Shown here: in pieces, positions 2,266 to 54,483 of the stretch | Layout: the number at the start of each line of letters is the position of its first letter | Position numbering within the stretch: position 1 is the first letter of the stretch | Assembly (NCBI GenBank): GCA_021731045.1 | Contig: JAKFYE010000013.1 | Location: 1-64,000 of the forward strand | Length of the DNA stretch: 64,000 nucleotides | Source: Bdellovibrionales bacterium | GTDB lineage: Bacteria; Bdellovibrionota; Bdellovibrionia; Bdellovibrionales; JAKFYE01 | Direction of reading: 5' to 3' | Made by a program: the position numbers and the translations under genes | Notes under the pieces: model-generated | What the model saw: the letters and a program-made list of their open reading frames with translations, nothing else | What the model was told of the DNA's origin: nothing | Database searches by the model: none

Positions 2266-4038
2266 TTAATTTCTATTTCGAAAAGCCGCATGCTTAACTG
2301 CGGCAGATTGCTTTGAGGACTTTCCCTTATTACTTTCACGACCTACATCTTGAGTCGCATCCTTAAGTTTTGAATGTTCTAGAGCCGCAGCAACGAAACT
2401 TTTAAATAATGGGTGTGGCTGGAGAGGTTTAGATTTAAATTCAGGGTGAAACTGCACGCCCAAAAACCAAGGATGATCGCGCAATTCTATAATCTCAACT
2501 AAATCACGCTCTTCGCAAATTCCAGATAAGGTCATGCCATGTTTTTCAAATAGCTGACGATACTGATTGTTAAACTCATAGCGATGGCGATGGCGTTCAG
2601 AAACCGCATTCTTTCCGTAAACTTGAAGCGCTAATGTATTTTTTTGAAGCTTACAATTATAAGCACCCAAGCGCATCGTGCCGCCTTTTTGCTTACCTTT
2701 TTGATCTTGCATAATATCAATCACAAAGTTTCGGGAGTTCAATTGCTTATTGGATTTGTCAAATTCACGTGAGGTTGCATCTTTAATGCCGCACATGTGA
2801 CGAGCAAATTCGATACTCGCCAATTGCATTCCTAGACAAATGCCAAAAAATGGAATTTTATTTTTGCGAGCAAATTCGATCGCCTTAATTTTACCCTCAA
2901 TACCGCGTTCGCCAAAACCGCCCGGAACTAAAATCGCATCGACTCCCGAGAGAGCAACGGCCACGTTCTTGTCCGTTAAAGTTTCGGAGTTTACATATAT
3001 ACAATTTACTTTGGAATTGTTCGCAATACCTCCGTGAACGAGAGCTTCGTTCAAAGACTTGTAGCTTTCTTTAAGATCCACATATTTTCCAACCACACCG
3101 ATCGTAATTTCGCGCGCAGGCTTTTTCAAAATACGAATCATTTTTTCCCAACCTTCAAGGTCAGGTTCGTGTGTTTCAATTCCTAAACGTGCGCAAACTT
3201 TTTTATCAAAACCTTCACGATACAAAAGTAACGGCACCTCATAAATCGTCAACACATCGTACGCTGGAATCACATTCTCTGGACGTACGCTACAAAACAA
3301 ACCAATCTTTGCTCGCATGTCTTCTGGTAAAGGTTTTTCACTGCGACAAATTAAAAAATCAGGTTGAATCCCCTCTTCGCGTAATTCTTTAACAGAGTGT
3401 TGTGTCGGTTTACTTTTGGCTTCACCTGCGGCCGCGATATACGGAATGTATGTAACATGAACGTAAAGTGTATTTTCAATTCCTTCATCCACGCGCATTT
3501 GGCGAATCGCTTCAATAAAAGGTAAGCTTTCGATATCGCCCACCGTTCCGCCGATTTCTACTAACGTAACTTCTGCACCTTGAGCCACATCATAAATTCG
3601 GGCTTTGATTTCATCTGTCACGTGCGGAATCACCTGCACCGTTCCGCCCAAATAATCGCCACGACGTTCTTTGGCAATGACAGTTTCGTAAATCTGTCCA
3701 GTCGAAACACTATTCGCCCTGGTCGTGACGGGCGTCGTAAACCGCTCATAGTGACCTAAATCTAAATCTGTTTCAGCTCCGTCTTCAGTGACATACACTT
3801 CGCCATGTTGAAACGGAGACATCGTTCCTGGATCCACATTAATATACGGATCAAACTTCATAATTGAAACTTTAAGTCCCCGAGCTTCGAGCAATGCACC
3901 TAATGCCGCCGTAGATAAACCTTTGCCGACCGACGACACAACTCCACCCGTTATAAAAATAAATTTGGGAGTCAGTGGTCTAAATGCCGACCCTGATTTA
4001 CGACCAGACTTTGAAAATGCTTTTCCATTTTTTTTCAT
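2266..4038 (-). CDS. pyrG: CTP synthase
   Basis: This enzyme makes CTP from UTP, ATP and glutamine. The N-terminal synthetase domain carries [14 protein letters not shown] (about 28-41) and [16 protein letters not shown]. The C-terminal glutamine amidotransferase domain carries the nucleophile motif FFGICLGMQ and GVQFHPEF. At 590 residues it is longer than the usual ~540, through a basic N-terminal extension of about 23 residues and a Lys/Ser-rich tail of about 30. It overlaps kdsB by four bases (ATGA-type coupling). This fits the need for CTP in CMP-Kdo formation. Confidence 0.97.
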
Positions 4039-17826: not shown

Positions 17827-18954
17827 TCAGGATGCCTTTTGGAACTTCGATCGAGAAAAGGGGATTTTATTGGATTCAATCTCTTCAATGAAGGACGGAA
17901 TTTCGCCTGTTGGCTTTAATTCGCCGTGAAGAACACCGTCAGGACCGCGCATGAGATTACCCAGATCGAAAATAGGCGCGATATTATACGTCCCGTCTTT
18001 GTTAAGTCCGCGAACTTCCGAGATTGTCTTAATGCGTCGCGAGCCATCGGAGAATCTAGAAATTTGTACGATCATATCGATCGCGGAACCGATTTGGTAT
18101 TGTATCGCTTTTAAAGAAATTTGAGAATCGCCGCCCATCGCCAAGCCCTCAAGACGCACAACAGCATCATCCGGTGAGTTGGCATGAATAGTTCCTAGGC
18201 ACCCTTTGTGACCAGTATTCATCGCGTTGATAAGCTCAAGAGCTTCTGAACTTCGCACTTCGCCTACAATAATTCTGTCGGGGCGCAAGCGAAGCGAACT
18301 TTTGAGAAGATCACGAATCGTGATCTCGCCCTTGCCTTGCGCATCCGCCATTTTGGTTTCAAAAAATACGACGTGTTCGTAGTCGACCGTTAACTCGCTC
18401 GCATCTTCGATCACGATCACGCGCTGACCTGCCGGAATACGATTGCACAAAACACTCAACAAAGTGGTTTTACCAGAACCTGTTCCGCCGCTGACGAGAA
18501 TGTTTTTGCCGAGATACATGCAGAGATCTAAAAATCGGGCACCATCTTCGGTGATAGCGCCAATTTTGACGTAATCTTTAAATGTCATTTTTACTTTTGA
18601 AAATTTGCGTATCGCAATGGTCGTTCCGTTGCGAGCGCACGGCGGGAGCACAACGTGTATACGTGAACCATCAGGTAAACGGGCATCGAGTGTTGGATTT
18701 TCTTCGGTAAGTCGACGTTGCACTCTCTGTGCGATGCTGTTTGCCGCTGCGATCAAGGCATCTTCGTCTTCAAACTGAGCATCAGTTTTATAGAGTTTGC
18801 CCGCACGTTCGATAAAAATTTCTTTGGGCCCGTTAATCATGATCTCAGTAACTGTAGGGTCATTCAGCAAATCGACGATCGGCGCGAGAAAATTGGCAAT
18901 TGCGGCTTCAAAAACTCCGCCATCTTGATCTTCTGAATTTCTCTCGCGGGCCAT
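17827..18954 (-). CDS. CpaF/TadA-type secretion ATPase
   Basis: The 375-residue protein belongs to the type II/IV secretion ATPases of the CpaF branch. It has the N-terminal LLNDPTVTEIMINGP segment, Walker A SGGTGSGKTTLL, the Asp box IVIEDASELT, Walker B RPDRIIVGEVRSSEAL and the His box CLGTIHANSPDDAVVRLE. CpaF drives Tad/Flp pilus assembly at the inner membrane. No other Tad gene lies in the window, so it may be an orphan motor. It starts two bases after the cupredoxin-like gene. Confidence 0.9.
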   Translation of the reverse strand: MARERNSEDQDGGVFEAAIANFLAPIVDLLNDPTVTEIMINGPKEIFIERAGKLYKTDAQFEDEDALIAAANSIAQRVQRRLTEENPTLDARLPDGSRIHVVLPPCARNGTTIAIRKFSKVKMTFKDYVKIGAITEDGARFLDLCMYLGKNILVSGGTGSGKTTLLSVLCNRIPAGQRVIVIEDASELTVDYEHVVFFETKMADAQGKGEITIRDLLKSSLRLRPDRIIVGEVRSSEALELINAMNTGHKGCLGTIHANSPDDAVVRLEGLAMGGDSQISLKAIQYQIGSAIDMIVQISRFSDGSRRIKTISEVRGLNKDGTYNIAPIFDLGNLMRGPDGVLHGELKPTGEIPSFIEEIESNKIPFSRSKFQKAS

Positions 18955-50760: not shown

Positions 50761-53601
50761 ATGATTTCATCACAACGTGAATTTGCGGATCGTCATATTG
50801 GTCCTTCGTCAGCTGAGCAAAAGAAAATGCTGGAGCATATTGGATTTCAAAATCTAACGGCTCTTACCGATAAAGCGGTGCCTCAATCGATTCAGTTAAA
50901 ACGCGATTTAGATTTACCGAAAGCTCTTAAAGAGAATGAAGCAGTTGAAAAAATCCAACATATGTTTTCTAAAAATAAAATTTTTAAATCGTTTCTCGGT
51001 CAAGGTTATAGCGACACGATCACACCGGGAGTCATCCTCAGAAATATTTTAGAAAACCCAGGATGGTACACTCAGTATACCCCTTACCAAGCCGAAATTG
51101 CACAGGGTCGTCTCGAAGCGCTATTAAATTTTCAGACAATGATCACCGATCTCACAGGGCTTGAAATCGCCAACGCCTCTTTGCTCGATGAGGCTACCGC
51201 TGCGGCCGAAGCGATGGCGATGGCTTATCATGCAGAAGGCTCAGAAACTAAAAACGTGTTTTTTGTTTCTGAACTTTGCCACCCGCAAGTGATCGAAGTG
51301 GTCATTACACGTGCGGAACCGGTAGGAATTAAAATTGTCATTGGCAACCACGAAACTCAAAAATTTAACGATCAAATTTTCGGTGCCCTCTTACAATATC
51401 CGGCGACGAACGGAACTGTTTTTGATTACACCAGTACGATTCAAAAACTTCATGACGTAAAGGCCTTAGCTATAGTTGCCGCCGATATTTTAGCGCTGAC
51501 CGTTTTAAAGTCTCCAGGAGACATGGGCGCCGATATCGCGATCGGAAACACGCAACGCTTTGGCGTACCCATGGGCTTTGGTGGCCCACATGCGGCCTAT
51601 ATGGCGACAAAACAAACGTTCGTTCGCTCTATGCCAGGACGAATAGTTGGAGTTTCTGTCGATGCACAAGGTCGCCCCGCCATTCGCTTAGCCCTTCAAA
51701 CTCGCGAACAACATATTCGTCGCGAAAAAGCGACAAGCAATATTTGTACGGCTCAAGTTTTACTCGCGATTATGTCGAGCATGTACGCGGTTTATCACGG
51801 GCCCGAAGGTACCAAAACTATCGCGCGCACCGTTTTAAGTTTGGCGCAGGGTTTTGCAAAAGAACTTCAAGCTAAAGGCATTCAAGTTCTCTCGACAGAT
51901 ATTTTTGATACCGTTGCCGTGCAAACGTCTGACGCCAAAACAATTTTAAATCGTGCAAATCAAAAAGGAATGAATCTTCGTAAATTCAGCGACACCGTTG
52001 TATTGGTGTCTTTTGATGAATGCAAAACCGAATCTGATGTTCTTGAGCTTATCGAAATCTTTACCGGAAAATCGGCAACGGTTTCTCTTAAGCTTCTCGA
52101 CGAATCGGTTTTAGGAAAACTCAAACGCTCCACACCTATTTTGGTGCATGAAGTTTTCAATCGCTATCATTCTGAAACCGAAATGCTTCGTTACATTTAC
52201 CGATTACAATCACGTGATTTATCTTTAGCTCATTCTATGATTGCTCTGGGTTCTTGCACGATGAAGTTAAACTCAACCGCCGAAATGATTCCTGTCACGT
52301 GGCCAGAAGTCGGTCGCATTCATCCTTTTGCACCTAAAGACCAAACGAATGGATATTTTGAACTCTTCAGCGATTTAGAACGTTGGCTTTGTGAAATTAC
52401 AGGCTTTGCCGGAGTTTCCCTTCAACCGAATGCCGGTTCGCAAGGGGAATACGCAGGTCTACTGGCAATTCGCAAATATCACGAAACGCGCGGAGATTCA
52501 GGCCGTAATATTTGTTTAATTCCAAGTTCCGCTCACGGCACAAACCCCGCGAGCGCGGTTATGGCCGGAATGAAAGTCGTCGTTGTCGCGTGCGATGACG
52601 GTGGCAACGTCGATCTTAATGATTTACGTGCGAAAGCCGAAGCTCACAGCCGCAATCTTGCCGCACTGATGGTGACGTATCCGTCTACACACGGAGTTTT
52701 TGAAGAACCGATCAAAGAAATTTGTAACATCATTCATAAACATGGCGGCCAAGTTTATATGGACGGCGCTAACATGAACGCACAAGTTGGCTTATGTCGC
52801 CCCGGAGATTTTGGGCCTGACGTTTGCCATCTTAATCTCCACAAAACATTTTGTATCCCGCACGGCGGAGGCGGCCCAGGCATGGGCCCGATTGGCGTGG
52901 CAAAACATTTACTACCATTTCTTCCTGGTCATAAAACCTACGGCGTAGGTACAAACCAAAGCTCCGGCGCTGTTTCGGCGACCCCATGGGGGAGTTCAAG
53001 CATCTTACCTATTCCGTGGATGTACATCGCTATGATGGGCGCCCAAGGATTAAAAACCGCGACACAAGTGGCAATTCTAAACGCTAACTATGTCGCCAAA
53101 AAACTCGATCCGCATTTTCCTGTACTATTTAAAGGTAAAGACGGTCTTGTCGCGCACGAATGTATCGTAGATTTAAGACCATTAACTGCTAAGAGCGGCA
53201 TCACGGTTGAAGACATTGCCAAAAGACTTATGGATTACAACTATCACGCGCCCACAGTTTCATTCCCCGTCCCGGGCACAATGATGATCGAACCCACCGA
53301 GAGCGAATCTTTGCACGAGTTAAATCGGTTCTGCGAAGCTATGATCGCCATCAGAAAAGAAATTCAAGACGTCATTGATGGTAAGACAGATAAAACAAAC
53401 AACACACTCAAAAACGCCCCACATACGGCCGCAGTTTTAACAACCGAAACCTGGAGTCATTCCTACTCCCGCGAAACGGCAGTCTTCCCACTCGCATGGG
53501 TCAAAGCCTCAAAATTCTGGCCCTCAGTAGGAAGAATCAACAACCCGCACGGCGACCGCAACCTCATCTGTTCCTGTCCCACCACCGACACCTACACTTA
53601 A
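50761..53601 (+). CDS. gcvP: Glycine dehydrogenase (decarboxylating), P-protein
   Basis: The 946-residue protein is the single-chain PLP subunit of the glycine cleavage system. It releases CO2 from glycine and passes aminomethyl to the lipoyl arm of Gcv[15 protein letters not shown] at the N-terminus and the PLP Lys in [18 protein letters not shown] are visible, with [12 protein letters not shown] before it. GAGG lies six bases before ATG. The partner genes gcvT and gcvH are not in the window. Confidence 0.97.
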
Positions 53602-53604
53602 AAC

Positions 53605-53632
53605 TTCGTACTCGCAATTTTGCGAGTACGAA
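53605..53632. other. Hairpin after gcvP
   Basis: TTCGTACTCGC (53605-53615) pairs perfectly with GCGAGTACGAA (53622-53632) around AATTTT. On the plus strand it is followed by A residues, not T, so it is not a classical terminator for gcvP, but it may protect its mRNA end. Confidence 0.6.
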
Positions 53633-53738
53633 AAAAACACAAAGTAATGACCCTATCCAGTCCTTCCTCAACTAACTTTGCCTACACGCTAAAACGTCAG
53701 CCCCAATTGTTACATAGGCCAACTTCGTAAGCTCTTTT

Positions 53739-53898
53739 CTGCGTTTCTATTCTCAATTTCAATATCTTCTAGAATAAGGATTGAACACACGATGGCCAAA
53801 GGCCATTCGCGCGCACGAGGCGCGCGAAAGTGTGTTCATGCGCCCACGGAGGGGCGCCCTTATTCTAGAAGATATTGAAATTGAGAATAGAAACGCAG
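53739..53898. repeat. 160-bp element with 41-bp perfect inverted arms
   Basis: Positions 53739-53779 are the exact reverse complement of 53858-53898. The 78 bases between the arms are themselves almost fully pairable: GAACACAC (53783-53790) with GTGTGTTC (53830-53837), enclosing hairpins 53792-53806 (ATGGCC-AAA-GGCCAT) and 53807-53827 (TCGCGCG-CACGAGG-CGCGCGA), then hairpin 53840-53857 (GCGCCC-ACGGAG-GGGCGC). The interior is G+C rich while the arms are A/T rich. It fills the convergent space between gcvP and the SPOR gene. No coding sequence was recognised in it. Confidence 0.9.
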
Positions 53899-53916
53899 GA
53901 GCGAGGTAAGTAAGTC

Positions 53917-54483
53917 TTATTCGTGAGCGATAATGGCGTCTTTGATTCCTTGGGATCGGAATTTTTCACGAAGCGTGTAAGCTTCTTCTTTCGAAGCCAC
54001 AGGTCCGATGCGCACTCTTGAATAGGGAATATCATTAACTGTGACCGATTGAATGTATCCCGTAAACCCTTTCGCTTTGTAATCTTCTAACATTTTTTGT
54101 GCGGCGGCTTCGTTATCGGCAATAGCCGCGATTTGCACACTAAATCCCGACTTCGTCGCATTTTCGGGACGAGCTTCAGGTTGGTGACCTTTGCCTCCGA
54201 CAAACTTAATTTTTTCACCTTTAGTTTTTTCTTCGTGAGAAACGATGGCAGGTGTAGCAACGGCCGCTTTGTGCAATTTAACTTCCATATGCTCATCGCT
54301 AGAAGGAACTCGCTGTTCTTCCGTTTTGGTCTCGACCGTTAAATCCTGAGTTGAGTTTTGAACTCCTGGCTCCGAGTGGATCGAAAAAAGCGTGTCCCCG
54401 GCTTGTCCTTTGAACGATATCAGGTAAAAACTTCCAAACACGACAGTAAATCCTACGACTGCACTTATTCCAAATCGCTTCAT
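53917..54483 (-). CDS. SPOR-domain membrane protein
   Basis: The 188-residue protein has one N-terminal membrane helix (about 6-25), a disordered periplasmic linker and a C-terminal SPOR domain (about 112-188: SGFSVQIAAIADNEAAAQKML, YSRVRIGPVASKEEAYTL). SPOR domains bind denuded septal peptidoglycan, so a role in cell division or septum processing is likely, as in FtsN, DedD or DamX. The stop lies 18 bases from the big inverted repeat. Confidence 0.86.
   Translation of the reverse strand: MKRFGISAVVGFTVVFGSFYLISFKGQAGDTLFSIHSEPGVQNSTQDLTVETKTEEQRVPSSDEHMEVKLHKAAVATPAIVSHEEKTKGEKIKFVGGKGHQPEARPENATKSGFSVQIAAIADNEAAAQKMLEDYKAKGFTGYIQSVTVNDIPYSRVRIGPVASKEEAYTLREKFRSQGIKDAIIAHE

Follow-up and report, generated by a model that had tools for sequence, protein, structure and literature searches.

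Large palindromic repeats of Bdellovibrionales with a conserved core and locus-specific, paired arms

The 160-base palindrome described here belongs to a group of large palindromic repeats of the order Bdellovibrionales. No name or description for this group was found in Rfam or in the searched literature, in keeping with the preliminary description of this DNA, which knew of no named family. Dispersed bacterial palindromes are usually known by a shared sequence. What the present elements have in common is a fold and a short core, and their long arms change together at dozens of loci. The best explanation, to which we give about an even chance, is a repeat of mobile origin that is kept as a hairpin at gene 3′ ends; we infer both its spread and its function from the comparisons below. 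These elements also mark gene 3′ ends in predators that pass through an attack phase without growth, in which the stability of messages should be important.

The window, the whole stretch of 64,000 nucleotides that was analysed, comes from a relative of the predatory Bdellovibrio (order Bdellovibrionales). Its source genome, labelled G000, is a draft of 2.58 Mb in 47 contigs and is 83.5% complete. The features of the locus are as follows.

50761-53601, + strand: gcvP, glycine dehydrogenase (Pfam PF02347), left convergent neighbour
53604-53633, - strand: intrinsic-terminator-like hairpin with TTTT, on the strand of the SPOR gene, about 106 nt beyond the element
53739-53779, + strand: left arm, 41 bp, A+T-rich, locus-specific, exact reverse complement of 53858-53898
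53761-53769, + strand: arm motif AATATCTTC, degenerate, common to core types A, B and C of G000 (alignments, census)
53780-53857, + strand: cloverleaf core of type A, G+C-rich, conserved among 12 full copies
53782-53838, + strand: core stem, 53782-53790 with 53830-53838 (fold, covariation)
53792-53806 and 53807-53827: hairpins inside the core stem, with loops AAA and ACGAG
53840-53857, + strand: third hairpin, GCGCCC-ACGGAG-GGGCGC, loop ANGGA invariant in 12 copies (fold, alignment)
53858-53898, + strand: right arm, 41 bp, its end facing the SPOR stop codon 18 bases off
53868-53876, - strand: inverted copy of the arm motif (GAAGATATT read on the + strand)
53917-54483, - strand: gene for a SPOR-domain protein (Pfam PF05036), right convergent neighbour, stop at 53917

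The arms are exact reverse complements of 41 bp each with 78 nt between them, as the preliminary description had stated. The flanking GCTC (53731-53734) and GAGC (53899-53902), which it offered as an extension of the pairing, are both present; an outer stem beyond the arms was not detectable in this copy. The RNA fold of the element reaches -122.3 kcal/mol (z = -19.6, none of 200 shuffles folding as well) and reproduces the proposed core layout, in which one stem encloses two hairpins and a third stands beside it. The DNA fold reaches -77 kcal/mol (z = -20.4). This palindrome is the only inverted repeat of at least 18 bp in the 64-kb window and is therefore far beyond chance, as had been argued from its arms. 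The convergent gcvP and SPOR genes and the distance of 18 bases from the SPOR stop were likewise borne out. No T-run was seen next to either arm end, again as described, so that the U-tract that directly follows the hairpin of an intrinsic terminator is missing from this copy. Searching positions 53400-54100 against Rfam gave no match at E values up to 1.

To look for further copies, we searched G000 at the DNA level. Thirteen copies, spread over many contigs, and some weak fragments were found, and a covariance model recovered the same 13; the palindrome is thus not a one-off. The 12 full copies (type A) are 146-194 bp long, with arms of 36-57 bp that have few or no mismatches. Each copy has its own arm sequences; common to the copies are the core and, in the arms, a short motif around AATATCTTC. 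Covariation, for which the preliminary description had asked, was clear in the type A alignment: 33 of 57 base pairs carry two-sided changes, 97.1% of cells are paired, and none of 500 shuffles matches this. Core helices 2-4 also show covariation. The thirteenth copy (L014, contig C10:29491-29578) has lost the two inner core hairpins and kept arms of 57 bp; in this copy the arms outlive the core.

A census of palindromes in 1.22 of the 2.58 Mb of G000 revealed three more core types. Type B (2 copies) has a core of 38-39 nt and the same arm motif as type A; a gapped pattern scan for the type B arms, with GARGATATT in place of GRAGATATT, undercounts them. Type C (6 copies) has a core of 114-121 nt and the same kind of arm motif, and the core of type D (5 full copies) is different again. 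In 10 of 20 elements examined (all six of type C and four of 12 of type A), the stem extends outward past an internal loop of 11-18 unpaired nt per side into an outer stem of 22-53 bp. Two type C paralogs, L303 and L346, look recent, and their few arm differences are apparently paired. On contig C6, a lone 40-bp stretch without a partner arm (L328:872-911) is 87.5% identical to the arm of an element 1.6 kb away and is possibly a decayed copy. Another repeated hairpin, AAAGGCGTCACTCTACTTTTCGTTCCGAGCCGC, occurs in four copies (L313:1914-1997 and 3037-3116; L350:9984-10059 and 18731-18810).

With the covariance model of the window family, elements were also reported in four further genera of Bdellovibrionales; the E values, of which the best is 8e-11, depend mostly on the long stem. 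Five Bdellovibrio elements served to build a second model, which matches 31 of 141 genomes in the order; the genus of HD100 accounts for 22 of the 31. This second family is present in most Bdellovibrio species, including B. bacteriovorus HD100 (G031) with 12 elements, and has no match in G000. Each of the four Bdellovibrio genomes searched in depth yielded 12 to 33 matches. The cores of the two families differ but short hairpins such as GCGCCCAYGGAGG and GCCACGATGGC recur, so that the families are likely homologous. In agreement with the identity of G031 as HD100, a c-di-GMP riboswitch falls inside the published merRNA coordinates. Phage records, plasmid records and viral contigs gave no match to the element, and a model search at class level, over 144 genomes, brought no element beyond the order. 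Three matches came from a pattern scan across the genome collection; none has a palindrome, and they were judged to be chance. In Bdellovibrio, elements often come in twos, oppositely oriented and about 200-350 bp apart, each with its own arms (L152, L153, L154, L155, L156, L157). Palindromes of genome G021, which look like a separate, related-looking family, lie near HNH endonuclease genes at six of eight loci (L075, L086, L089, L090, L091, L092).

Judged by their flanking genes, many Bdellovibrio elements stand at orthologous places across species. When loci L103 and L173 were aligned, both arms were altered and the flanks hardly so. Across 34 comparisons, divergence was 16.4% for the arms, 12.7% for the adjacent 60 bp, 10.3% for the farther flank and 7.1% for the core. 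By sign count, the arms exceeded the adjacent flank in about 21 of the 34; arm change is therefore at least roughly as rapid as that of the surroundings, and we make no claim that it is faster. In 32 comparisons, 107 arm pairs had changed on both sides and were still paired, and 132 had changed on one side. If the two arms changed independently, we estimate that roughly 1% of pairs would show two-sided changes that keep the pairing (the squared site divergence divided by about three), against 8% observed. At low divergence, one-sided changes outnumber two-sided ones by 26 to 5; at higher divergence the numbers are 106 and 102. Because one-sided changes dominate early and two-sided ones accumulate later, the course of change looks like compensation in steps. 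This fits selection better than a mechanism that copies one arm onto the other at once. A slow correction of one arm against the other may also play a part. The relatives lie at known HD100 coordinates and at orthologous loci in many species, which makes it testable whether long perfect hairpins are maintained by selection or by DNA repair.

These results bear on the two origins that the preliminary description had offered for the perfect arms, recent arrival of a MITE or foldback element and an actively maintained structure. The 13 dispersed copies, and a related element that is present or absent at an orthologous locus, speak for arrival. Youth is not the whole account of the perfection, because the arms are locus-specific and nonetheless paired, and because arms of the Bdellovibrio family change in step; the perfect arms of the window copy thus point to maintenance as well. 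The in-step change was seen in the Bdellovibrio family, whose homology with the window family is likely, not proven.

Selection on one RNA strand would be expected to tolerate G-U pairs but not A-C mismatches. To see which molecule is constrained, we counted both kinds of cell in the arms of 106 aligned elements and found 26 G-T and 37 A-C. A cruder count that reaches into the flanks gave 186 G-T and 135 A-C for Bdellovibrio, and 14 and 9 for G000. Three core helices pair at 98.7-99.5% with G-U almost absent; the whole core has 31 G-T and 7 A-C, largely from one poorly defined pair. The alignment used here, being fitted to the model, is biased towards pairing but should not prefer Watson-Crick pairs over G-U. 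Since the changes in arm pairs are nearly purely Watson-Crick and strand-symmetric, the constraint on the arms must lie at the DNA level or on the transcripts of both strands.

Both families take a similar position relative to genes. In each, it is the same end that is turned towards the nearest stop codon upstream, at medians of 28 and 29 nt, and the far end lies at medians of 114 and 118 nt from the opposing stop codon. These spacings use simple ORF calls, by which 20 of roughly 100 Bdellovibrio loci were unassignable. Type C elements lie between convergent genes in six of six cases, compared with 19% of all gaps, and several elements sit between tandem genes. At the orthologous locus L145, the element stands between stop codon and terminator in HD100, G028 and G014, and the terminator stands alone in G020 and G044. 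Around the 13 G000 copies, a relaxed scan (the first scan was too strict) found a terminator-like site within 300 nt at one locus. In HD100, one element falls within the mapped attack-phase transcript APsRNA6 (1,338,787-1,339,441), which runs 184 nt past the element. This transcript holds an ORF of 92 codons whose start is 26 nt behind the reported 5′ end, suggesting that APsRNA6, instead of being a non-coding RNA, may be a small mRNA whose 3′ untranslated region contains the element.

As expected for a MITE, the G000 family has 13 dispersed non-coding copies with inverted ends, and the Bdellovibrio relative has a filled and an empty site. No consistent direct repeat was seen outside the arms of the 12 type A copies, whose ends are uncertain, and none of the genes in 1.22 Mb of G000 is flanked by element arms, as an autonomous parent would be. 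Y1 transposase genes exist in G000 (5 matches), HD100, G050 and G021. No long palindrome was found at five Y1 loci of G000, two of HD100 and four of G050, where the only matches were weak and partial (21-34 bp), and the Y1 transposase was rejected as mobiliser since its genes do not adjoin elements at the loci examined. Terminal repeats of 30 bp, AAAAGGTGCCTACCACCTTTTGTGGATGCA, lie on both sides of one G000 Y1 gene, at L260:1329-1358 and 2120-2149 (contig C26), and L297, L307, L309, L314 and L316 contain this sequence again as perfect hairpins with loops of 3-9 nt. This set looks like a TIRtron family by analogy with those described in PMC3733652. The Y1 genes of HD100 (L274) and G050 (L275) carry analogous repeats.

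In the explanation that we favour, copies would have spread as non-autonomous mobile DNA, moved by a putative mobiliser. A copy that came to lie behind a gene would persist through the hairpin that it forms on the transcripts of both converging genes, or through a DNA hairpin or cruciform, and the hairpin might serve as a boundary or as protection for the 3′ ends of messages. Selection would be on arm shape and blind to arm sequence, so that the arms could drift freely provided that both sides change together. The Watson-Crick-only, strand-symmetric changes would fit, because hairpins would be needed on both transcripts; the setting between tandem genes makes a need on both strands less obvious. 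The palindrome might instead be selfish at the DNA level and have no host role: a folded single strand or cruciform would be recognised by a putative transposase or recombinase, with pairing upheld by intrastrand templated repair or by the movement of paired copies only. We regard this as possible but doubtful. It would account for arms nearly free of G-U and of strand preference, for the stereotyped internal loop in ten elements, for the recent-looking type C paralogs and for presence and absence at one locus. The early excess of one-sided changes, however, resembles stepwise compensation, the fixed polarity about 28 nt behind stop codons is unexplained by selfishness alone, and a linked recombinase was not found. 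Another reading, which we consider speculative, is that the elements are lineage-wide DNA hairpin sites read by shape. A putative dedicated protein of Bdellovibrionales would bind the core and the often two-tiered stem with its internal loop at a fixed distance, and the arms, free in sequence and mutually corrected, would give each locus a private arm sequence.

The other explanations fit poorly. Placement between convergent genes, 3-150 nt behind stop codons, together with the few separate terminators near G000 copies, would suit a bidirectional transcription terminator. The elements lack a T-tract, however, and are also found between tandem genes; APsRNA6 passes through one of them; and terminator-like hairpins lie beyond the element at the window locus and at L145, which makes this role improbable. 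An ANGGAN hexaloop closed by C-G is a known CsrA/RsmE site, and the hairpin at 53840-53857 shows one, which raised the question of whether the element is a CsrA RNA sponge. A sponge of the CsrB/RsmZ type presents multiple GGA hairpin loops on a single expressed small RNA. The invariant ANGGA loop occurs once per copy, similar loops exist in related elements, and csrA is present in all 13 genomes tested. It is equally present where no element was reported, and so does not discriminate; moreover, transcription from the nearest upstream gene would yield the strand opposite to the GGA strand, the loop sequence in many Bdellovibrio elements is CGA instead of GGA, and the pairing has little strand bias. 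We therefore find a sponge very unlikely. A REP-type palindrome mobilised by a Y1/RAYT enzyme is similarly hard to sustain. Y1 genes do exist in the four genomes named above, but those examined have no flanking long palindrome, one in G000 is bordered by another terminal repeat, which is also found as hairpins with short loops, and the size and layout are unlike those of REPs (PMC3733652). The draft assembly left room for a fold-back artefact, as the preliminary description had cautioned. This can practically be dismissed, as a single core is common to the 13 loci while their arms differ, and elements of the same kind occur at orthologous loci and in single-contig and complete genomes.

Among published repeats, YPAL, ERIC and QMITE2 come closest in lifestyle. 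The element is placed in none of them, because no consistent target-site duplication was found and because locus-specific arms are not described for them in the cited passages. YPAL inserts close behind stop codons. The cited account of YPAL, or RU-2 (Yersinia, about 168 bp), describes dispersed, intergenic palindromes with filled and empty sites, like our element in all these respects and in size, and proposes an influence on the RNA stability of upstream transcripts (PMC2229807). In contrast, YPAL has target-site duplications of 3-26 bp and belongs to another lineage, and co-evolving arms do not feature in that account. ERIC (127 bp) is likewise an intergenic repeat that folds into one long stem-loop; it is described as co-transcribed, with an orientation-dependent effect on message stability (PMC2229807, PMC2267715). 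ERIC copies share one consensus with 7-bp terminal repeats in these accounts, whereas our elements have copy-specific arms of 36-57 bp and a cloverleaf core. QMITE2 of Coxiella burnetii resembles the element in having inverted repeats around a core (113-145 bp) and in lying on the 3′ side of genes, mostly in 3′ untranslated regions; its terminal repeats are reported as 23-29 bp with direct repeats of 7-9 bp (PMC10969869), and such direct repeats were not found here.

REP/BIME, REPtrons and TIRtrons are, like our elements, dispersed extragenic palindromes with a supposed single-strand DNA mobility and several families per genome. A REP is a palindrome of 20-40 bp that carries a GTAG or CGTC tag, and REPs are often found on the flanks of a Y1 gene (PMC3733652); the tag is unpaired and stands at one end. 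Our element, in contrast, measures 160 bp or more, its type A copies with their long arms all exceed REP size, and it does not lie beside the Y1 genes examined. The attC sites of integrons keep their shape while their sequence varies, and they lie directly behind genes with fixed polarity. Our elements are like attC in placing shape over sequence and in their polarised position behind genes. They differ in that attC keeps its ends and varies its middle, whereas here the middle is conserved, the ends are variable and the copies are dispersed.
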